NCBI GenBank assembly: GCA_947473475.1
Contig: CANJBZ010000021.1
Coordinates: 1 to 64,000, forward strand
Source of the DNA: Alphaproteobacteria bacterium
Lineage (GTDB): Bacteria > Pseudomonadota > Alphaproteobacteria > Micropepsales > Micropepsaceae
Length of the DNA: 64,000 bases
Direction: 5' to 3'
The translations under genes and the position numbers were made by a program. The notes below the pieces were generated by a model, which saw nothing but the letters and a program-made list of their open reading frames with translations, had not been told where the DNA came from and made no database searches. This document shows positions 1 to 24,238 of the stretch, piece by piece. Every line of letters starts with the position of its first letter. The first letter of the stretch is position 1.

Positions 1-136
1 CATAAAGTTCCACTGTGAACATCCTTCCAGCCCCTCCATGCCCTTCAAGACATAAAGACGGCCTAGCAGGACCGGTACACTTTGCCGCCGCCTTCCAGCA
101 GCCAAATCAAAGCCGGTTCAGTGGTACACTTTGCTC
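1..136. mobile_element. Probable end of an insertion sequence (partial, body off-window)
   Basis: Two direct copies of the 12-mer GGTACACTTTGC lie at 74-85 and 123-134, 49 bp apart, and the octapeptide repeat array of the neighbouring gene stops dead right beside the second copy. Multiple short direct repeats near the terminus, acting as transposase binding sites, are typical of IS21-family elements, and motifs of the GTACACTTTGC type resemble those ends. No transposase reading frame is visible because the rest of the element would lie left of the window. The exact boundary (about 135-140) is inferred from where the repeat coding sequence loses its period. Family assignment is tentative. Confidence 0.4.
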
Positions 137-3100
137 CCGCGATTTATAGCTGAAGGTGCCGATTTGCGTATCGGTGAATTCGCCTACATCGGTGGTGCTC
201 AGCCCACGCAATTCGGTGGTGGTGATGCCGCTGATTTGGGTGGCGTTCAGCGCCCCGACGACCGTCGAGTCAATGGAGGAGAAATTGGTGGCCGAGAGCG
301 CGCCCAATTGCCCCGCCGTAAAGCCGCCGATCTGCGTGTCGGTGAATTCGCCGAAGTCAGTCGTGGACAGACTGCGGAGTTGCGTCGCGGTGACGCCGCC
401 GATCTGCGTGGTGTTCAGGCTGCCAATCTGGGTGGCGTCGAAATTCGACAGGGTCGTACTGGTGAGTGTGCCCAACTGAGCGACGGTCAAGCCGCCGATC
501 TGGGTCGAGCTCAGCGTTCCGAGGTTGGTCGTGGTCAGCGCCGAAAGCTGCGTTGTCGCCAAAGAGCCGATCTGGGTGGACGTGAAGCTCCCGAGCGCGG
601 TCGACGTCAGACCGGCAAGCTGCGTGCTGGTGACGCCGCGAATTTGCGTCGTGGTCAACGCGCCGATGGCTGTGGCGTCCAAGGTCGAGAAGTTGGTCGC
701 CGAGAGGGCGCCAATCTGGGTCGATGTGAAGGCCGCGATCTGGCTATCGGCGAACTCGCCGACATCCGTCGTGCTAAGCCCGCGCAATTCGGTGACCGAG
801 ACGCCGCCGATCTGCGTTGTGCTGAGGGCGCCGACTTGCGTCGCGCTCAGGGCCGAGAAATTGGTCGCACTGAGGGCGGCGATCTGTGTCGTGCTGAAGC
901 TGCCGACCTGTGTGGATGTGAACTCGCCGACATCGGTCGTGCTCAGACCGCTGAGCTGGGTCGCCCCCACGCCGCGGATTTGCGTCGCGCTCAAGCCGCC
1001 TATGGCGGTGGCATCAATGGCCGAGAAGTTGGTCGCGGACAGTGCGCCCACCTGCGTCGAGGTGAAGCCGCCGATCTGGGTATCCGTCAATTCGCCGAAA
1101 TCGGTGGTCGAAAGGCCACGGATCTGGCTGGCCGTTAGCCCGCCAATCTGTGTCGCGCTCAATCCGCCGACTTGCGTGGCGTTCAGAGCCGAGAGACTTG
1201 TGCCCGCCAATGAACCGAGCTGGGTCGAAGTCAGGCCGCCGACCTGTGTGGCGTCAAGCTCACTGAGACGCGTGTTGGACAATGCGGCGAGCTGCGTGGT
1301 TGCCAGCGTGCCGATCTGAGTTGCCGTGAAGGCGCCGACCGCCGTTGAGGTCAGGCCCGAGAGCTGCGTGGACGTGACGCCGCGAAGCTGTGTGGACGTC
1401 AGAGCGCCGAGCGCCGTCGTGCCGATGGTCGAGAAATTGGTCGCGGAGAGAGCGCCAACCTGCGTCGAGCTGAGCGAGCCGATCTGCGTGTCGTTGAGTT
1501 CGCCCACATCGGTTGTGGAAAGACCGGCAAGCTGCGTTGTCGTCACGCCACGGATTTGCGTCGTGGAGAGCTGGCCGACGGCGGTGGCGTCGATGGCCGA
1601 GAAGTTGGTCGCCGAAAGCGCGCCGAGCTGGGTGGAGCTGAGGCTGGCAATCTGCGTATCCGTGAATTCACCGAAATCGGTGGTGGACAGCGCGCGGAAC
1701 TGGCTGGAGGTCAGTCCGGAAATCTGTGTCGAGCTGAGCCCGCTGGTCTGGGTTGCGGTCAGCGCCGAGAGATTGGTGCCGGACAGCGAACCGAACTGGG
1801 TCGAGGTCAGGCCGCCTACCTGAGTGGTGTCAAGGTTGCTGATATTCGTGGCGGTGAGCGCGCCCAGTTGCGCGGTCGACAGCGATCCAACCTGCGTGGC
1901 GGTGAAGGCGCCAAGGGCGGTCGAGGTCAGGCCAGCCACCTGCGTCGTGGTCACGCCGCGAAGCTGCGTGGCGCTGAAGGAGCCCAGTGCGGTGCTATCC
2001 AGCGTGGAGAAGTTAGTCGCTGAGAGCGCGCCGAGCTGCGTCGAACTCAGTGCCCCGACCTGGGTGTCGTTGAACTCACCGATATCGGTTGTGGACAGGC
2101 CGCGCAGTTCGGTCACCGAGATGCCGCTGACCTGCGTCGTGCTGAGCGCACCGATCTGAGTCGAACTGAGCGCCGAGAAATTGGTCGCGCCAAGCGCCGA
2201 CAATTGCGTGTTCGAAAGCGTTCCGATCTGCGTGGATGAGAACTCGCCGACATCCGTGGTGGACAGCGCGGAAAGCTGGGTCGCCGTGACGCCGCGAAGC
2301 TGCGTGGCGTTCAAGCTGCCGATGGCGGTCGCGTCGATGGCCGAGAAATTGGTCGCCGACAGCGCACCGAGCTGCGTGCTTGTAAGCCCGCTGATCTGCG
2401 TATCGTTCAGGTCGCCGAAGTCGGTTGTGGAGAGGCTCCGCAACTGCGTGGAGGTTAAGCCGCCAACCTGTGTCGCATCCAGACGGCCGATCTGTGTGGC
2501 ATCGAGCGTCGAAAGGCTGGTCGCGGAAAGCGAGCCGACCTGCGTCGCCGTCAGCCCACCGATCTGGGTGGTGCTGAGGTTGCCAACGTTTGTTGTCGTC
2601 AGCGCCGTAACCTGCGTGGTCGCGAGCGAGCCGATCTGCGTGGCGGTGAAGCTGCCGAGCGCGGTCGAGGTCAGCCCCGACACCTGCGTCGTCGTCAGCC
2701 CGCGAAGCTGGTTCGTGCTGAGGCCGCCGATGGCTGTGGCGTCAAAGGTGGAGAAATTGGTTGCCGAGAGCGCGCCGATCTGCGTCGAGGTGAAGGCGCC
2801 GATCTGGGTTTGCGAAAATTCTCCAACGTCGGTTGTGGACAGGCCGCGCAGTTCCGTCGTGGAAATGGCTACGACTTGCGTGGTGCTGAGCGCGCCGACC
2901 TGGGTTGCGTCCAAGGCGGAGAAATTGGTCGCGCTGAGGGCCGAAATCTGCGTGGTGGCCAGCGTGCCGATCTGGGTCGAGGTGAATTCGCCGATATCGG
3001 TGGTTGTCAGGCCCGCAAGCTGCGACGCCGTCACGCCGCGGAGCTGTGTCGCGTTCAACGAAGCGACGGCCGTCGTGTCGATGGACGAGAAATTCGTGGC

Positions 3101-4036
3101 GGACAGAGCGCCGATCTGCGTCGAGGTGAAGCCGCCGATCTGCGTATCGGTGAACTCACCAAAGTCGGTGGTGGACAGGCTGCGCAATTGCGTAGCGGTG
3201 ATGCCGCCAATCTGTGTGGAGGACAGTCCGCCGACCTGGGTGGAATCCAGCGCCGACAGGAGGCTTCCGGCCAGCGAGCCGACCTGCGTTGTATTCAGCC
3301 CGCCGATTTGGGTAGCGCTGAGGTTTCCGATGCTCGTGGTTGTGAGCGCGGAAAGCTGCGTGGTCGCAAGCGTCCCCACCTGAGTCGAGGTGAAGCTGCC
3401 GAGGGCGGTTGAGGTGAGACCGGTCACCTGGGTCGACGTGATCCCGCGTATCTGCGTCGCGGTAAGACCGCCGATGGCGGTCGCGTCGAGCGTCGAGAAA
3501 TTGGTGGCGGATAGTGCGCCGATCTGGGTCGAGGTGAAGCTGGAGATCTGGGTGTCGGTGAATTCACCAACATCGGTGGTGGTGAGGCCACGAATTTCAC
3601 TTGTTGTGAGCGCGCCGATTTGGGTCGCGTTCAGAGCCCCGATCTGGGTGGCGTCGAGCGAGGAGAATTTGGTTGCGGTCAGCGCCCCGAGCTGCGTGCC
3701 GGTCAGCACATTGATGTGCGTGGCGTCGAGCGCGCCCAGCTGCGTGTTGGTCAGCGAGGCGAACTGCTGACTGCTGAGGACAAGCAATTGCTGCGTGCCG
3801 AAGACAACCGAGTTTTGGAAGCTCGGTATCTGCGTGGTTGTGAACCCACGAACCTGCGTCGTCGAGAAGGACGAGAGCTGCGTTGCGTCGAGTACCGCGA
3901 TGCCGCTCGTATTGATGGCGGCTAACTGCGTGGAACTCAGCGAGGATATGTCAGTCGCTGTCAATCCTTGAATGACTGTGGTCGACAGCGCGCTGATTTG
4001 AGCTGCTGAGAGCGAGGAAATCGGCACGGTAGGCAT
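107..4036 (-). CDS. Giant octapeptide-repeat protein, probably 3'-truncated
   Basis: The 1309-residue product is built almost entirely from 8-residue units of the form [ST]xTQ[ILV]xxL, for example TSTQIGAL, SATNFSTL and STTDVGEF. It is very rich in Thr, Ser, Ala, Gly, Leu, Gln and Asp, with no Cys or Trp seen and few Lys or His. Unit types recur in fixed order, giving a higher-order repeat of 31 octads (744 bp). The anchor unit with ELRGL followed by STTDVGEF recurs near 3590, 2846, 2102, 782 and 206. About the first 100 residues are less regular. No signal peptide, membrane segment or autotransporter domain is seen. The repeat ends in TDTQIGTF followed by an unrelated tail SYKSREQSVPLNRL encoded by the IS-like end, so the native C-terminus, where a secretion signal or anchor might sit, is probably lost. 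Similar Thr/Gln/Leu octad proteins occur in alphaproteobacteria as presumed surface or secreted proteins. Function is unknown. Confidence 0.75.
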   Translation of the reverse strand: MPTVPISSLSAAQISALSTTVIQGLTATDISSLSSTQLAAINTSGIAVLDATQLSSFSTTQVRGFTTTQIPSFQNSVVFGTQQLLVLSSQQFASLTNTQLGALDATHINVLTGTQLGALTATKFSSLDATQIGALNATQIGALTTSEIRGLTTTDVGEFTDTQISSFTSTQIGALSATNFSTLDATAIGGLTATQIRGITSTQVTGLTSTALGSFTSTQVGTLATTQLSALTTTSIGNLSATQIGGLNTTQVGSLAGSLLSALDSTQVGGLSSTQIGGITATQLRSLSTTDFGEFTDTQIGGFTSTQIGALSATNFSSIDTTAVASLNATQLRGVTASQLAGLTTTDIGEFTSTQIGTLATTQISALSATNFSALDATQVGALSTTQVVAISTTELRGLSTTDVGEFSQTQIGAFTSTQIGALSATNFSTFDATAIGGLSTNQLRGLTTTQVSGLTSTALGSFTATQIGSLATTQVTALTTTNVGNLSTTQIGGLTATQVGSLSATSLSTLDATQIGRLDATQVGGLTSTQLRSLSTTDFGDLNDTQISGLTSTQLGALSATNFSAIDATAIGSLNATQLRGVTATQLSALSTTDVGEFSSTQIGTLSNTQLSALGATNFSALSSTQIGALSTTQVSGISVTELRGLSTTDIGEFNDTQVGALSSTQLGALSATNFSTLDSTALGSFSATQLRGVTTTQVAGLTSTALGAFTATQVGSLSTAQLGALTATNISNLDTTQVGGLTSTQFGSLSGTNLSALTATQTSGLSSTQISGLTSSQFRALSTTDFGEFTDTQIASLSSTQLGALSATNFSAIDATAVGQLSTTQIRGVTTTQLAGLSTTDVGELNDTQIGSLSSTQVGALSATNFSTIGTTALGALTSTQLRGVTSTQLSGLTSTAVGAFTATQIGTLATTQLAALSNTRLSELDATQVGGLTSTQLGSLAGTSLSALNATQVGGLSATQIGGLTASQIRGLSTTDFGELTDTQIGGFTSTQVGALSATNFSAIDATAIGGLSATQIRGVGATQLSGLSTTDVGEFTSTQVGSFSTTQIAALSATNFSALSATQVGALSTTQIGGVSVTELRGLSTTDVGEFADSQIAAFTSTQIGALSATNFSTLDATAIGALTTTQIRGVTSTQLAGLTSTALGSFTSTQIGSLATTQLSALTTTNLGTLSSTQIGGLTVAQLGTLTSTTLSNFDATQIGSLNTTQIGGVTATQLRSLSTTDFGEFTDTQIGGFTAGQLGALSATNFSSIDSTVVGALNATQISGITTTELRGLSTTDVGEFTDTQIGTFSYKSREQSVPLNRL

Positions 4037-4367: not shown

Positions 4368-6005
4368 TCAGGAAGGCTTGTCTTTCTTCAATACGACACC
4401 GTCATATTCGTGGCTGTCGACTAGGGCCTCCACGATCACGGGGCCTTCCTGGGCGAAAGCCCATGTCAGCGCCTCGCGCAGTGCATCCACGCTTTCAACG
4501 CTTTTCACGGGCGCGCCAAAGATATTGTCGCCGCCGATTTTTCCGCGCGGGCGGACGGGCGTGCCGTAGATCGGATTGCCCTTTTTTTCCTGTTTGATGC
4601 GTATCAGCGCGAGGTCGTTGTCGGTTAGCACCAGGATGACCACGTTCAAATTGCAGCGAACGGCCGTTGCGATTTCACCCGCCGTCATCAGGAACCCGCC
4701 ATCGCCGGCGACGGCGCAGACCTTTTTTTCCGGGTGCATCAGTTTCGCGGCGATAGCGGCGGGAACGCCAAAGCCCATCGTCGACCAGCCGTTCGTCATG
4801 ATTTGCAGACCGGGCGCAGGCGTGCGCCAAAGCTGGCCTATCAGGTGTGTGTGCGCGCCGACATCGCACGTCATAATGCCGTCTGCCGGCAATACTTCGC
4901 GCAAGGTGGTGAGCGCGGCTTTCGGTCCGAAGCTGCCGGGCGAGGGGGCCAGCTTGGCGAACATAGCCGCGCGGCGGGCGGCGAGGGCGTCGAGATCCCA
5001 TTCTTTGCGGCTTGCCGGCAGGGTCAGCAAGCTTTCCAGCGACGCGCGGATGTCGCCAATCGCATCAACGGCCAATGTATAGCTGCTGGTATCGATATCC
5101 GCGGCCATGGTGTCGAAACTGACCAGGGGCGCCGATTTCGGCAGCCAGGATTCGTAATTGAATTCTACCGGGTCATAACCCACGCCAATTACCAGGTCTG
5201 CCTGCCCGTGGGTCTGGCCGACGATGTCGCTGAGGGCGTGGAAGACCACACCGGCGTAGCAAGGGTGATCTTCGGACAGCATTCCCTTGGCCATGGGCGT
5301 CAGGATGACGGGTATCCCGTGCTTCTCCGCGATTTCAAGGACGAGGCCTCCAACACCGGACCGTACCGCACCGAGCCCAAGGGCAAGAATGGGTTTGCGG
5401 GTCTTAGTGAACAGCCCGGCGGCCTCGTCCAGCAGGGTCCTGTGGGCCGGCGGCGTGGCGGCAGGCGCTTCAAACGCAACGTTTTCCGGCACCGCCTCTT
5501 CGGCGGACAGCCCCACGGGCAGGCCGACATGGACCGATCCGGGTCTTTCCTCCAACGCCACGCGCGCCGCATTGAACAGGATCGAACGCACGGCATCGGC
5601 CCGAAGCCGGGTGGTCTTTTTGGTCAGCGGCTGAAACAGGGCCTGATGGTCGATGCCCATCTGTGTCGTTCGCCCCCGCATGGCCGCGGGCATTTCGTCC
5701 GTGAGCGCGATCACCGGAGAGCGGTCGAGCAGGGCTTCCCCCACCCCGGTCGCCAGATTGGTGGCGCCCGGACCGAAGGTGCCGAAGCAGACGCCGGGAG
5801 CCGGGCCGATGCGGCCGCAGACATCGGCCATCATGCCGGCGGCCCCTTCATGCGTGGTGAGGACGAATTCGATGCCCTCTGTCTGGCGCAGGGCCTCCAT
5901 ATAGTCGACCCAGCCGCCGCTCGGGACGCCGAACACATATTTGACGCCAAGCTCGCGTAGGGCGCGCACGACTTCGACGGCGACGGTGGGGTTCTTCTGG
6001 GGCAT
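4368..6005 (-). CDS. Thiamine pyrophosphate-dependent enzyme, acetolactate synthase-like
   Basis: This 545-residue protein has the three-domain architecture of the TPP enzymes: an N-terminal pyrimidine-binding domain with the catalytic Glu in THEGAAG (residue about 53), a central domain, and a C-terminal PP-binding domain with the GDGGF...TDND motif starting near residue 434, which binds Mg-diphosphate. Such enzymes decarboxylate or ligate 2-keto acids (acetolactate synthase, benzoylformate decarboxylase, sulfopyruvate decarboxylase types). The substrate cannot be read from sequence, and no acetolactate synthase small subunit lies nearby, so a catabolic role is likelier than branched-chain amino acid synthesis. 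The start at 6005 (MPQKNPTV) fits the family N-terminus; a longer frame would run into the divergent gene at 6082. The 76-bp gap between the two starts must hold both promoters. Confidence 0.8.
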   Translation of the reverse strand: MPQKNPTVAVEVVRALRELGVKYVFGVPSGGWVDYMEALRQTEGIEFVLTTHEGAAGMMADVCGRIGPAPGVCFGTFGPGATNLATGVGEALLDRSPVIALTDEMPAAMRGRTTQMGIDHQALFQPLTKKTTRLRADAVRSILFNAARVALEERPGSVHVGLPVGLSAEEAVPENVAFEAPAATPPAHRTLLDEAAGLFTKTRKPILALGLGAVRSGVGGLVLEIAEKHGIPVILTPMAKGMLSEDHPCYAGVVFHALSDIVGQTHGQADLVIGVGYDPVEFNYESWLPKSAPLVSFDTMAADIDTSSYTLAVDAIGDIRASLESLLTLPASRKEWDLDALAARRAAMFAKLAPSPGSFGPKAALTTLREVLPADGIMTCDVGAHTHLIGQLWRTPAPGLQIMTNGWSTMGFGVPAAIAAKLMHPEKKVCAVAGDGGFLMTAGEIATAVRCNLNVVILVLTDNDLALIRIKQEKKGNPIYGTPVRPRGKIGGDNIFGAPVKSVESVDALREALTWAFAQEGPVIVEALVDSHEYDGVVLKKDKPS

Positions 6006-6081
6006 AGCGGGTTTTCCGAATTGCTTGTCGAGATCGGCACTATCACTTATCCCATGCGGGAAATCTCGCAACTTAAGTTCG

Positions 6082-7050
6082 ATGTCCAAGCTCCGCCTGT
6101 CCTGCGCTCTCTGGGATTACGACCGTACCCGCCCCCTGATAGACAGCCGGGTGGCGCCTGAGGGGATCGATCTGGACATCCAGATCGTTCGGCCGGGTAA
6201 GACCTTTCAGCGGATGCTGGAAACGGGCGAGTTCGACGTCTGCGAGATGTCGCTCTCGACATTCGCTATCCTCAAAGCGCGCCGCGAGAGCCCGTTTGTG
6301 GGATTGCCGGTCCCCCTGTCGAAGATTTTCCGGCACTCCTGCATCTATGTGCGGACGGGGGCAGGTATCTCGGTTCCTGCCGATCTGAGGGGAAAGCGCG
6401 TCGGCACGCCGCAGTACAGCGCGACCGGAATCGTATTCCTCCGCGGTCTGCTTCAGGACGAATATGGTATCGCTCCCGAGGAGATGCACTGGTTTACCGG
6501 CGGATTGAACAAACCCGGCGAGAAGCCGCGGCTGCCGCTGAGCATGCCGGTGCCGCATCAATCGCTGAACGAGACCCAAACGCTGGAGCAGATGTTCGCC
6601 GCGGGCGAGTTGGATGCGCTGTTTGCCAACCAAATCCCCTCTTTGTTCCTGAACGGGTCGCCGGGGATTGCACGGTTGTTCCCAAACTATCGCGATCTGG
6701 AAAAGGACTATTTCCGCCGCACCGGAATTTTCCCGATTATGCATATCGTCGTTGTCCGCAACGATGTGTTTCGCGCCAATCCCTGGGTGATTAAAAGTCT
6801 CTATGCCGCCTTCTGCGCGGCCCACGATATGGCGGTGGAGGGGCTGTACGATAGCGACGCTTTGCGTCTGTCGCTGCCGTTTCTTCTGGACCATGTCGAG
6901 GAAGCGAAAGCGGTCTTCGGCAAAGACTTCTGGCCCTACGGCATCGACGCCAACCGCCCCACCTGGGATGCCCTCTGCCGCTACGTCCACGAGCAAGGCC
7001 TCGCCCCGCGCAGGCTCACCGCGGATGAGTTGTTCGCAGTGTCACTCTAA
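6082..7050 (+). CDS. 4,5-dihydroxyphthalate decarboxylase-like / substrate-binding-fold protein
   Basis: The 322-residue protein resembles the 4,5-dihydroxyphthalate decarboxylase family, which shares a periplasmic-binding-protein type II fold with ABC transporter substrate-binding proteins. Features include the N-terminal RLSCALWDYDRTRPLID stretch, the FDVCEMSLSTF segment and the LRGKRVGTPQYSATG loop typical of the fold. No signal peptide is present, which favours a cytoplasmic enzyme over a transport protein. It is divergent from the TPP enzyme, suggesting a shared control region and a joint role in breakdown of an aromatic or keto-acid substrate. The start at 6082 is chosen because the family begins with this segment; the in-frame extension upstream overlaps the neighbouring gene. 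A good Shine-Dalgarno is not evident. Confidence 0.75.
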   Translation: MSKLRLSCALWDYDRTRPLIDSRVAPEGIDLDIQIVRPGKTFQRMLETGEFDVCEMSLSTFAILKARRESPFVGLPVPLSKIFRHSCIYVRTGAGISVPADLRGKRVGTPQYSATGIVFLRGLLQDEYGIAPEEMHWFTGGLNKPGEKPRLPLSMPVPHQSLNETQTLEQMFAAGELDALFANQIPSLFLNGSPGIARLFPNYRDLEKDYFRRTGIFPIMHIVVVRNDVFRANPWVIKSLYAAFCAAHDMAVEGLYDSDALRLSLPFLLDHVEEAKAVFGKDFWPYGIDANRPTWDALCRYVHEQGLAPRRLTADELFAVSL

Positions 7051-7710: not shown

Positions 7711-8580
7711 TCAAAAATCCGGCGTCCTTGCTTCAGGGATGGGAACCTGTCCCGGCTCGTCGAAATAATTGGCGTTGTTGTTTTCGGCACAGACATATTC
7801 GGAATCGGAGATGGGAAGAATCTGTCTGTTAAAATAATGCAGGCCCGACCATTTCGTGGTGAACGTGCCGGGATCCTCGACCGTAATCATGCCCTGCATG
7901 CGCTTGCCGCCTTCGATCAGTTTGTACCGCTCGATGACGTGCATCTTGTCCGTGTGCGGCGTGTGGTACCAATCGACGAAGGTTTTGTCCGACAGCCCGA
8001 TTGTGTCGATAACGAGCTCGTCGCCTTCGTAATGGCCGACCGACTCGCCGAACCAGCTTGGCTCCACATTCTTGCTGTGCGGCACGTTCAAATAGACATG
8101 ACGCTGATAGGGCCCGCGCGAATAAAGAATTGTCACTTCCTTGGGGGACTGCACCCAATAGGCCGGCTGTGCCGTGAACAGCATCATGCCGGGCACGCCG
8201 CCCGGCCAGCAGCGGGACATAGCTTCGAAGGATTCTTTCCCCGAAAGGATTTCATCGTTGGTCCGCTTCAACTGCGCCGCCGCCCACGGCTGCAAGATCG
8301 GATTCTTGGTATCGCCGATTGGCGGCAAAATCTGATTGCCGCATTTAGCCATCCGGCGATTGCCGCAAAACGGATGCGCGGGGTCGTTGGTTACCGGCAC
8401 GAATTTCTCGCCGGGCACGGGAAAGAACTCCACCCCGTCGGACGCGAAGCCCATATTACCCGAGGAAAAATCCGGCAGCCCGTTGGGCAGGTGAGGGACT
8501 GCCTGGTCTGCTGCGCTTGCCATTCCGGCGGTGGCCGCGACAAGAAGCGCGCCGAGGACGTGCGATTTCATACGAGCCAT
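7711..8580 (-). CDS. Secreted protein of unknown function (paralogue 1)
   Basis: This 289-residue protein has a signal peptide ending near ASAADQ (residue about 24), preceded by a good ribosome site (AGGAG, 5-6 bases before the ATG at 8580). The conserved core GHYEGDELVIDTIG, followed by DKTFVDWYHTPHT and ITVEDPGTF, marks a family of exported proteins found in many soil bacteria, without known activity. The next gene upstream (8590-9354) has the same core in related form (GHWEGDTLVV, ITVHDPVYF), so the two are tandem paralogues 9 bp apart. Four Cys residues could form disulfides in the periplasm. Confidence 0.7.
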   Translation of the reverse strand: MARMKSHVLGALLVAATAGMASAADQAVPHLPNGLPDFSSGNMGFASDGVEFFPVPGEKFVPVTNDPAHPFCGNRRMAKCGNQILPPIGDTKNPILQPWAAAQLKRTNDEILSGKESFEAMSRCWPGGVPGMMLFTAQPAYWVQSPKEVTILYSRGPYQRHVYLNVPHSKNVEPSWFGESVGHYEGDELVIDTIGLSDKTFVDWYHTPHTDKMHVIERYKLIEGGKRMQGMITVEDPGTFTTKWSGLHYFNRQILPISDSEYVCAENNNANYFDEPGQVPIPEARTPDF

Positions 8581-8589
8581 GGTGCTCTC

Positions 8590-9354
8590 CTATTTCGCCG
8601 TTGCGCGCGCGGCGTTCTGGGCGCGCGCTTCGTTGATGCCTTCGATTTTCGAGATGTCTCGATGTTTTTCGCCGCAGACGTAATCGGTCAGGCGCAGCCC
8701 GTCATGGTTGTCGTAGGCGAAACGGGCCTGCCAATCGCGCGTGAAATAGACGGGGTCGTGAACCGTGATGACGTCTTCGAGCTGCTTGCCGCCATTCACT
8801 TTGCGAATATGCTCGGTGGTGACGAGTTGATCGCTATGCGGCAAGCCGGTCGCATCTGTGAGGGTGCTTTCGTTAAAGCCCGCGCTTTGAACGACAAGCG
8901 TGTCGCCTTCCCAGTGCCCCGCGGAATGGCCGTTCCAGAACGGTAAGACCGACAGCGTTTCCAGGCTGTCCAGCGGCTTCACCATGGAAATGCCGCGGAT
9001 CATGGCGTTTTGTTCATAGGCCCAGCTCATCTGGCCTTGCGGTCCGTCGATGATTTGGAACGGGTAGGGCGTTGCAAGCGATCGCGGCAGGCCGTCGGGG
9101 GTACAATACCGGCGTGCGCGGTCCATCAGCGAGCCGTCCTTCAGGCCGGCCTGATTTTCGGCATATTTCTTCTTGCCGGCCTCGTTGAGGGGGATGTCGC
9201 CGCCGCCCACGAGATAGGCTTTCATGGAGGGGCTATACGAATTTGCCCACCAGATGCCCGTGATATCAGGCGCCGCCGCCGCATGCGCTGCCCCTGCGGC
9301 GAGAGCCAAAACAGCGCCTCCTGCCAGCGCCATCCGCGCCGCACGAAATCTCAT
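8590..9354 (-). CDS. Secreted protein of unknown function (paralogue 2)
   Basis: The 254-residue product starts at the ATG at 9354, which has a strong GGGAGG ribosome site; longer in-frame starts are not supported. A signal peptide (Ala-rich, cleavage near AHAAAAPD) is followed by DITGIWWANSYSP and the core GHWEGDTLVVQSAGFN, then HSDQLVTTEHIR and ITVHDPVYFTRDW. It is related to the neighbouring downstream gene and probably forms an operon with it and the MOSC gene. It is divergent from the large secreted hydrolase at 9540. Function is unknown. Confidence 0.7.
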   Translation of the reverse strand: MRFRAARMALAGGAVLALAAGAAHAAAAPDITGIWWANSYSPSMKAYLVGGGDIPLNEAGKKKYAENQAGLKDGSLMDRARRYCTPDGLPRSLATPYPFQIIDGPQGQMSWAYEQNAMIRGISMVKPLDSLETLSVLPFWNGHSAGHWEGDTLVVQSAGFNESTLTDATGLPHSDQLVTTEHIRKVNGGKQLEDVITVHDPVYFTRDWQARFAYDNHDGLRLTDYVCGEKHRDISKIEGINEARAQNAARATAK

Positions 9355-9539
9355 TGCATCCTCCCGAGTGTTCTTTGCCTGGGAGAATGTCACGATTGGC
9401 TCCACGCCTGAAGCCCTCCGCCGGGGCCGCGCTGCCCGAAAGGGCGGCGAATGCCTTCCGGGGCGGAGCGAGGTGGCGTAATCTCCCCGCCCAGAAACGG
9501 GAAATTGCCGCCACCAGCGGCGCTTAACGGAGGGATTTG

Positions 9540-11573
9540 ATGAGCGCGAGATCACAGGCGCGGCGGACGCGCGCGATACTGCTGGCTACGGCATCGGCCA
9601 TTGGCTGCGCCGCCGTGCTGGCCGCGGGAGCCGCCGACGCCCGCGTCACCAAAATCGAAATCACCAGCAAGGAAACGCCGACCTTCGACGGCAAGGCGTT
9701 CGGGGCCGCCGGGCAATACGAAAAGCTCTACGGCCGCGCTTACGGTGAAGTCGATCCCAAAGATCCGAAAAATGCCGTCATCGTCGACATCGCCAATGCC
9801 CCCAAAAACGCGCGCGGCATGGTGGAATACAGCACCAACATTCTGATCCTGAAGCCGCTCGATAACGCCAAGGGCAATCACAAGCTTTGGTACGAGGTCA
9901 ACAATCGCGGCAACACGCCGGCCTATTCGCTGATGAACGAATCCGATCCGGACTTCACGGGTAAGCTGTCGGCCGACGATGCGGGCAACGGCTTCCTGAT
10001 GAATCAGGGCTACACGATCCTGGAAGTTGGCTGGGACACGTCCGCCCCCAAAGACACTTTCCAGATTCGTGTGCCTGTCGCGAAGAACCCCGACGGTTCG
10101 CCGATTGTCGGTCCGTCGATGGAAGAGTTCGTCATCGACGACAATAAGACGATGCAGGGGCGGCTGACGTACCCTGCCGCGACGCTCGACAAGGCGAAAG
10201 CCACGCTGACCGTCCGCACGCGTTACGAAGACAAGCCCGAAGCCGTGCCCGCCGATCAATGGCAGTATACGGACGAAAAGGGCGCCGCGATCCGCCTCGC
10301 CGAAGGTAAACCGTTCAAGCAGGGCACGCTGTACACCTTCGTCTATCAGGCGAAGGACCCAACGGTGAATGGGCTCGGCTTTGCAGCTCTGCGCGACGTG
10401 GGCTCGTATTTGCGCAATGCGCAGAAGGATGATGCCGGCAACGCCAATCCGCTCGCGGGCTCGATCCAATATGTCTACACGGCATGCCAATCACAGCCGT
10501 GCCGCACCCTGCACGATTTTGTCTGGCTCGGTTTCAATCAGGATGAGACGGGCAAAAAGGTCGTCGACGGAATGACGAACTGGATCGGCGGTTCGACGGG
10601 AATCTTCACCAACTACCGCTTCAGCCAGGGCAGCCGCACGCAGCGCCAGCACATCGCGCGCTGGTACCCGGAATTCCAGGGGCCGTTCACCAATCAGGTA
10701 ATGCTCGATCCGGTCACAGGAAAGACCGATGGGCGCTTGGCCAAATGCACCGCATCGAACACCTGTCCGAAAATCTTCGAGACCAATTCGGCCAATGAAT
10801 ATTGGTCCAAGAACATGGCCGTCGGTCTGGTGGACGTTAAGGGCAAAGACCTGACCAACATGCCGCCCAACGTGCGCAATTACTTCATTGCCAGCATGTT
10901 CCACGCGGGGGCTTTCGCGCAGGGCGGCAAAGGCGTTTGCCAGCAGACGCGCAGTCCGCTGACGCCGACCGCTGTGTTGCGCGCCTTAACGGTCGCTATG
11001 GACGAGTGGGTGACCAAGGACGTCGCGCCGCCGGCCAGCCGGGTGCCGAGCGCCGATAAGGGCACGCTGGTTTCTCCGCTGCCGCAGGAGAAGCAGGGTT
11101 TCCCGAAGCTGCAAGGCGTCACCTATAACGGCCGTATGCATGATGGCGATTTGTTCGATTTCGGCCCCGATTTCGACAAGGGAATCCTGACCGTCCTGCC
11201 GCCCAAGCATCTTGGCACGCCCTATCCGGCGCTCGTGCCCAAAACGGACGCTGACGGCAACGACATTGCCGGCATTCGCATCCCGGAAGTCGCGGTTCCC
11301 ACCGCCACCTATACGGGCTGGGCGTTGCGCGCCAATTCGGGCGACGACGGCTGTGACGCGGCGGGCCAGATGATTCCCTTCGCCAAGACCAAGGCCGAGC
11401 GGATGGAAAAGAACGACCCGCGCCCCTCGCTTGAGGAACGCTATTCCTCCCACGATGATTACGTCACGAAAGTCTCCGCCGCCGCCAGCGCCCTGAAGGC
11501 CGACCGCCTGATGCTCGACGCCGACGTCCAGCGCATCGTCAAAAAAGCCCAGGACTCCAACGTCGCGAAATAG
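9540..11573 (+). CDS. Secreted alpha/beta hydrolase domain protein (Abhydrolase_10-like)
   Basis: This 677-residue exported protein has an N-terminal signal (about residues 1-36, ending GAADARV) and the features of the large alpha/beta hydrolase domain family typed as Abhydrolase_10: an N-terminal EITSKETPTFDGKAFG segment, a KLWYEVNNRGN block, a central FVWLGFNQDETGKK region and the C-terminal IPEVAVPTATYTGWALR segment. These proteins are presumed esterases; the nucleophile cannot be assigned confidently by eye. Several Cys pairs suggest disulfides. The ATG at 9540 has GGAGGG a few bases upstream; a TTG directly before it is less likely. It is transcribed away from the secreted pair at 7711-9354, with which it may share a degradative role. 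Confidence 0.75.
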   Translation: MSARSQARRTRAILLATASAIGCAAVLAAGAADARVTKIEITSKETPTFDGKAFGAAGQYEKLYGRAYGEVDPKDPKNAVIVDIANAPKNARGMVEYSTNILILKPLDNAKGNHKLWYEVNNRGNTPAYSLMNESDPDFTGKLSADDAGNGFLMNQGYTILEVGWDTSAPKDTFQIRVPVAKNPDGSPIVGPSMEEFVIDDNKTMQGRLTYPAATLDKAKATLTVRTRYEDKPEAVPADQWQYTDEKGAAIRLAEGKPFKQGTLYTFVYQAKDPTVNGLGFAALRDVGSYLRNAQKDDAGNANPLAGSIQYVYTACQSQPCRTLHDFVWLGFNQDETGKKVVDGMTNWIGGSTGIFTNYRFSQGSRTQRQHIARWYPEFQGPFTNQVMLDPVTGKTDGRLAKCTASNTCPKIFETNSANEYWSKNMAVGLVDVKGKDLTNMPPNVRNYFIASMFHAGAFAQGGKGVCQQTRSPLTPTAVLRALTVAMDEWVTKDVAPPASRVPSADKGTLVSPLPQEKQGFPKLQGVTYNGRMHDGDLFDFGPDFDKGILTVLPPKHLGTPYPALVPKTDADGNDIAGIRIPEVAVPTATYTGWALRANSGDDGCDAAGQMIPFAKTKAERMEKNDPRPSLEERYSSHDDYVTKVSAAASALKADRLMLDADVQRIVKKAQDSNVAK

Positions 11574-24154: not shown

Positions 24155-24238
24155 GCGGTCGTGGCGGAACGGTAGACGCGCTAGCTTGAGGTGCTAGTAG
24201 GGCAACCTGTGGAAGTTCGAGTCTTCTCGACCGCACCA
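24155..24238 (+). tRNA. tRNA-Leu (anticodon GAG)
   Basis: The acceptor stem GCGGTCG/CGACCGC is perfect, the anticodon stem CTAGC/GCTAG encloses loop TTGAGGT (anticodon GAG), a long variable arm is present as expected for a class II tRNA, the T-arm has GTTCGAGTC, and ACCA is encoded at the 3' end. It reads CUC and CUU codons. Confidence 0.95.

Follow-up and report, generated by a model that had tools for sequence, protein, structure and literature searches.

Organization of the locus

The window analysed here, 64,000 nucleotides of contig CANJBZ010000021.1 (positions 1 to 64,000; contig C21 of assembly GCA_947473475.1, an Alphaproteobacteria bacterium of the Micropepsaceae), opens with an octapeptide repeat gene that is interrupted by a transposable element. 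The open reading frame (ORF) at 107-4036 on the minus strand encodes 1309 amino acids, an array of eight-residue units (octads) with the consensus [S/T/D/N]-x-T-Q-[ILV]-[G/S]-[G/A]-L; in the explanation that we favor below, position 5 is widened to [ILVF] and position 8 to [LF]. The protein belongs to the Pfam family PF20080 (ALTTAQ repeat), with a whole-protein score of 454.6 bits against a cut-off of 26.4. An earlier note on this DNA had recognized the repeat array, but overlooked the insertion sequence (IS), the part of the gene beyond it, the Pfam assignment, the neighboring glycosyltransferase and the probable fold. The features of the locus are:

149..4036, minus strand: N-terminal 1296 codons of the native ALTTAQ repeat gene (PF20080, E 8.5e-140, 49 stretches; N-terminus aligned with 20 relatives)
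107..148, minus strand: final 13 codons of the ORF, in transposon sequence, with an IS-borne stop (the same 148 bp stand at other contig ends)
1..148, minus strand: end of a multi-copy IS21-family element, where contig C21 ends (82-85% match to Methylocystis plasmid istA loci)
149..153, minus strand: 5-bp target-site duplication TCAGC (second copy at the opposite IS terminus, on contig C26)
3707..4036, minus strand: N-terminal cap region, conserved in the long-protein family (alignment gap-free save for three residues before the likely start)
3777..3822, minus strand: change of register separating the first 8-9 octads from the main array (phase 1 before, phase 7 after)
2840..3583, minus strand: block 1, 31 octads (7+10+7+7)
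2096..2839, minus strand: block 2, 31 octads
1520..2095, minus strand: block 3, 24 octads, without the fourth 7-octad cassette
776..1519, minus strand: block 4, 31 octads
200..775, minus strand: block 5, 24 octads, the final cassette a hybrid of cassettes 3 and 4
149..199, minus strand: first part of block 6, interrupted by the IS and resuming on contig C26 (L037, minus strand, stop at 3560)
Blocks 1 to 5 are taken from the unit list and its block coordinates.

That an IS splits the repeat gene is near certain. Positions 1-148 of the window recur identically at about 15 other contig ends and match, at 82-85%, Methylocystis plasmid loci annotated as istA of the IS21 family, while searching with IstB models turned up no copy close to the IS termini. 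The remaining half of the repeat gene is found on contig C26 (locus L037), which terminates in the opposite end of the IS; TCAGC is present at both junctions, and the octad register is unbroken across the insertion site. This half, which was analysed separately from that on C21, contributes 948 further residues including the true C-terminus, giving a gene of ~2,244 codons (IS excluded), or about 280 octads, of which the window carries the N-terminal 58%. The end of the ORF had previously been taken as part of the repeat gene, yet its last 13 codons are transposon sequence and the native frame resumes on C26. Because the insertion splits the gene, the full-length product is probably not made in this strain. 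The IS21-type element is also seen at the ends of contigs such as C9, C11, C14, C20, C34, C39, C42, C57 and C62; since this multi-copy element breaks the assembly at many sites, other genes at contig ends may be interrupted as well.

The start of the ORF likewise calls for revision. Translation had been placed at the ATG at 4036, but GTG at 4027 is the likelier start, since it agrees with the family N-terminus M[PSA]IS and is preceded nine bases upstream by AGAAAGGG. Among 21 proteins the N-terminal 400 residues align with almost no gaps, and the C-terminus is conserved across the family too. The native N-terminal part consists of 34% Ser+Thr, contains no Cys, no Trp and few Lys, and the repeat protein has no evident N-terminal signal.

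A scan of genome contigs recovered 74 loci for the repeat family, distributed over Caulobacter, Phenylobacterium, Hyphomonadaceae, Acetobacteraceae, Telmatospirillum, Rhodoplanes, Hyphomicrobium, Magnetococcales and others. The genome itself holds a solitary paralog of 1016 amino acids on contig C25 (L038 4989-8039, plus strand), situated between ychF and dcd-like genes, with a 7-octad lag, a 3.46-octad period (see below) and no glycosyltransferase neighbor of family GT41. A protein of an uncultured Caudovirales phage (BFVD A0A6J7X2V1) shares 43% identity over a 104-residue stretch, and the repeat may therefore occur in phages too. Matches to Gp5_trimer_C and DUF5865 (Pfam) and to RpoE, Csp1 and LanM (NCBIfam) were rejected as cross-matches of repetitive sequence without biological sense; with the exception of Gp5_trimer_C, their scores lie far under the cut-offs. 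The repeat family is already in Pfam, where PF20080 is a repeat profile only; among open-licence papers we found no literature on ALTTAQ, PF20080 or HeliScrew, and no account of the turn described below, of how it fits the block lengths, or of the partner enzyme or export route.

Block structure of the array

A single phase holds 124 of the 129 strict octad matches in the ORF, as expected from the register-locked octapeptide array described in the earlier note, and the one register shift falls near residues 72-87. The anchor octads (TDVGEF or TDIGEF after [EI][LI]RGL) are units 18, 49, 80, 135 and 159, which reproduces exactly the anchor distances given there (744, 744, 1320 and 576 bp, equal to 31, 31, 55 and 24 octads), and the 55-unit stretch does separate into 24 + 31, with the split at unit 104. 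The 31-octad block is composed of 7+10+7+7 octads and the 24-octad block of 7+10+7, in keeping with the proposal that they differ by one 7-unit cassette. In the window's final block, the cassette formed by units 152-158 opens like cassette 3 (STTDFGEF TDTQIGGF) and closes like cassette 4 (ISGI, ELRGL), a hybrid that fits the deletion of one cassette via unequal crossing-over. Blocks of 24 units are also present in the C26 half, alongside one of 30 units.

Duplication of whole blocks in fixed register is supported by both the identity between units and their order. For lags of 31, 55 and 24, mean unit identity is 0.67, 0.62 and 0.56, respectively, compared to a top value at any lag of 0.46 in 300 shuffles of the unit order, and the nearest neighbor occupies the same block position for 45% of units (null mean 2.6%, null maximum 7.5%), confirming a block-wise unit order. 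The three 31-unit blocks diverge at 24-28% of bases, with nonsynonymous divergence (dN) of 0.17-0.20 and synonymous divergence (dS) of 0.78-1.06. The blocks are old, and given these base differences an assembly artefact is ruled out as the origin of the array. We consider this anatomy of the ORF near certain.

A shared period of 3.43 octads

To describe the array beyond its blocks, octads were encoded by their residues and the smoothed peak of the power spectrum along the array was determined for 56 arrays from the Alphaproteobacteria and Magnetococcales. The peak lies at 0.289-0.294 per octad in 55 of them, with a mean of 0.2912 and a standard deviation of 0.0008, corresponding to 3.43 octads. 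For the window array the spectral power is 10.2 against a shuffle maximum of 2.7; harmonics appear near the expected aliased positions, and the signal is kept in arrays with little recent block copying. The strongest autocorrelation lag is at most 0.11 period from an integer in all 56 arrays, a proximity expected for 20% of lags. Expressed in periods, lags of 7, 17, 24, 31, 48 and 55 octads amount to 2.04, 4.95, 6.99, 9.03, 13.98 and 16.02, respectively. Besides the 3.43-octad period, five arrays (L121, L124, L128, L136 and L139) exhibit a strong two-octad alternation, with a peak at 0.5.

We infer from these spectra that the period is the turn of a solenoid, with 27.5 residues per turn and about 105 degrees per octad. 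Blocks of 7, 24, 31, 48 and 55 octads would then be near-integer numbers of turns, which explains why these lengths recur. The suggestion of the earlier note that register is under selection can thereby be sharpened, each octad acting as one layer and the blocks as near-integer multiples of the period, with the qualification that the period may be partly inherited.

When 11,216 octads from 55 proteins are laid on this 3.43-octad turn, Asp and Glu cluster at 0 degrees, Lys and Arg at about 185 degrees and Asn at 309 degrees, while Ser/Thr amount to 1.9-2.8 per octad at all angles.

Predicted fold

AlphaFold2 (AF2) models were obtained for the N-terminal 413 amino acids (21 sequences; predicted local distance difference test, pLDDT, 92; predicted template modeling score, pTM, 0.79) and for the C-terminal 249 amino acids (28 sequences; pLDDT 95, pTM 0.85). 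Both show one short helix per octad, mostly of four to six residues, and zero strands. The sequence itself points the same way, in that octad position 1 is S/T/D/N in 145 of 162 octads and Gln is usual at position 4, a pattern that reads as a helix-capping box with position 1 as N-cap. On these predictions a helical fold is highly probable. Helix length per octad was used as a stand-in for the twist of the models: in the first model it follows the 0.2912 frequency (p 0.004, fixed frequency), though this signal is weak when the frequency is left free, as 19% of shuffles equal its power somewhere.

Fold searches against the PDB and viral models returned weak solenoid matches only, the best being mesothelin and armadillo, with TM scores of at most 0.44, Z of at most 8.9 and root-mean-square deviations mostly of 4-14 A; these alpha solenoids also build superhelices from short helices, but from repeat units several times longer. 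Against PDB sequences, the top chain for the family profile is HeliScrew4 (9zem, E 9.6e-22), which is absent from the matches of both fold searches, and the same profile also matches leucine-rich repeat (LRR) chains (E 1e-10 to 1e-3). HeliScrew4, which owes its name to the depositors and is, to judge by that name and its regularity, a designed protein, resembles the repeat protein in its successive octads [T/S]-P-[E/D]-Q-I-A-A-L in the same register, and the spectrum of its 12 readable octads peaks close to the 3.43-octad turn (p 0.018 at 0.2912); compared by sequence alone, it differs in having 120 residues and in being Pro/Glu-rich rather than Ser/Thr-rich.

A probable GT41 partner enzyme

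Downstream of the C26 half and on the same strand lies a gene for a 699-residue tetratricopeptide repeat (TPR) protein with a GT41 domain (L037 1165-3264), followed by an FkbM methyltransferase gene. The GT41 protein aligns with human OGT and, as its best match, with Xanthomonas OGT (XcOGT), including the His and Lys that we take to be catalytic. Neighbors were counted by tblastn in the 65 loci with enough sequence: in 50 of them, this locus included, a GT41 gene directly follows the repeat gene on the same strand, and in three Acetobacteraceae loci one is found divergently upstream. Within the family of the host, 11 of the 12 repeat-carrying genomes have an ortholog of this GT41 gene (at least 51% identity), against none of the 84 others (Fisher p 1.4e-13); one of the 11 is a fragment, and the single repeat-carrying genome without an ortholog is 64% complete. 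As other GT41 genes are common in this family, the link is specific to this GT41 subfamily. We consider it probable, from gene order and co-occurrence, that the enzyme modifies the repeat protein. Elsewhere in the genome, which has at least 12 GT41 matches, about five tandem GT41-type genes stand on contig C15 (23330-33738), with more on C2 and C30.

A comparable arrangement, a large exported protein with its own cytoplasmic GT41-like glycosyltransferase, is known from HMW1 and HMW1C of Haemophilus and Actinobacillus (PMC3983070, PMC3012730), and a dedicated GT41 gene beside the repeat gene is what the majority of our loci contain. However, HMW1 is two-partner-secreted and N-glycosylated, whereas the enzyme here is of the OGT type and accompanies a Ser/Thr-rich, predicted helical repeat and, in some relatives, type I secretion genes. 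For a beta-helical two-partner-secreted passenger of the HMW1 type there was no Pfam match, and the models are helical throughout.

Association with type I secretion genes

At two loci, L145 of Roseomonas sp. CECT 9278 and L135 of a Magnetococcales genome, genes for an HlyB-type ATP-binding cassette (ABC) transporter and HlyD lie directly upstream of the repeat gene, and ABC genes are found near it in six more loci (L112, L116, L125, L136, L142 and L144). The present genome encodes an ABC and HlyD pair on contig C33, not adjacent to the repeat gene. The family thus resembles the giant adhesins and RTX proteins of type I secretion systems in having HlyB/HlyD beside some members, a very long repeat and no evident N-terminal signal; RTX calcium-binding repeats (GGxGxD) and Ig-like domains gave no Pfam match in the repeat protein. 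This gene context makes export and a role at the surface reasonably likely, with somewhat less assurance than the modification by GT41.

A probable glycosylated helical rod and its alternatives

The explanation that we favor, and hold as a whole to be rather likely, is that the gene encodes a surface rod or adhesin, O-glycosylated in the cytoplasm and secreted by a type I system, which is built as an alpha solenoid of very short units, and that in this strain the gene is split by an IS. Each octad would form a capped one-turn helix and a short loop, and the octads would stack into a solenoid in which each turn takes about 3.43 octads, or 27.5 residues. Blocks of 7, 24, 31, 48 and 55 octads could be gained by duplication or lost while the faces of the rod keep their orientation, because these blocks are near whole numbers of turns. 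Such a rod would present an acidic face, a Lys/Arg face opposite, and Ser/Thr (about a third of residues) all round; the dedicated cytoplasmic TPR-GT41 enzyme probably adds sugars to these Ser/Thr, which the FkbM methyltransferase may modify. The protein would then probably leave via type I secretion to serve as a long surface rod, adhesin or coat. Our degrees of confidence in the fold, the modification and the export are not independent of one another.

Several observations weigh against this explanation. The glycan, the surface location and the adhesive or coat role are inferred, as are export and the geometry of the turn, and the value of 3.43 octads per turn derives from the sequence spectrum and not from model coordinates. 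AF2 can invent regular solenoids from repeats, and the period could partly descend from one ancestral 24-octad block instead of reflecting selection. In 15 of the 65 loci GT41 is not directly downstream, several of these being shorter, solitary paralogs, and type I genes are missing beside this repeat gene and in most of its nearest relatives.

Two alternatives are about equally unlikely. In the first, the array is a simple expanding repeat with no fixed superstructure, the block lengths mirror recombination sites and the GT41 neighbor is unrelated. Unequal crossing-over between 7-octad cassettes would by itself keep the register and yield 24 and 31 octads, as the hybrid cassette illustrates. 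However, the 3.43-octad period is found in distant lineages whose blocks have other lengths, as well as in arrays that lack recent block copies, dN between blocks is well below dS, and the co-occurrence with GT41 (11/12 versus 0/84) is not what an unrelated neighbor would give.

The second alternative places the protein, glycosylated or not, inside the cell as a scaffold or structural filament instead of at the surface. It accords with the lack of an evident N-terminal signal and of type I genes adjoining this copy, and its charged faces could cause the protein to pack within the cell. Yet substrates of type I systems need no N-terminal signal, and ABC and HlyD genes are directly upstream in the Acetobacteraceae and Magnetococcales relatives. 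The absence of Cys and scarcity of Lys also speak against an intracellular protein. Dedicated GT41-like enzymes such as HMW1C, moreover, are known beside exported adhesins (PMC3983070).

Least probable is a beta-solenoid or LRR-like adhesin with ~27 residues per coil and strands in place of mini-helices: beta-solenoids are common among large secreted repeat adhesins, LRR coils span a range that includes 27.5 residues per turn and the family profile picks up LRR chains, but these matches track Leu/Ile spacing, LRRs of 24 residues predict 3 octads per coil (0.333 per octad) where the peak is at 0.291, each octad carries the capping box, and the two high-confidence models are helix-only, so that in place of the 20-29-residue repeat with a strand per coil that characterizes LRRs we find an octad period and strandless models.

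If the glycosylated alpha solenoid is correct, an unstudied Pfam repeat would become a defined system, namely an alpha solenoid found in nature whose unit is very short and which has its own glycosyltransferase and an export route, and the fit to the turn would account for the super-repeat lengths of 7, 24, 31 and 48 that recur across lineages. The sequence signal alone yields a sharp and testable number, about 105 degrees per octad, and intact copies in relatives of Caulobacter make the hypotheses on glycosylation and surface location testable in culturable bacteria. As a more tentative extension, on the doubtful side in our own estimate, ALTTAQ proteins may be sugar-coated alpha screws in which duplications are kept only as whole turns (24 = 7, 31 = 9, 48 = 14), with aligned acidic and basic ridges packing the rods side by side into a coat or fiber.

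Other features of the window

Upstream of the repeat gene, positions 4368-7050 encode a thiamine-pyrophosphate enzyme and a divergent phosphonate/NMT1-like binding protein, with no evident link to it. The adjacent ORFs at 7711-8580 and 8590-9555, both on the minus strand, resemble related secreted proteins without an assigned function, a likeness judged by eye. A tRNA-Leu (gag) at 24155-24238 on the plus strand is the sole RNA gene found in the window.

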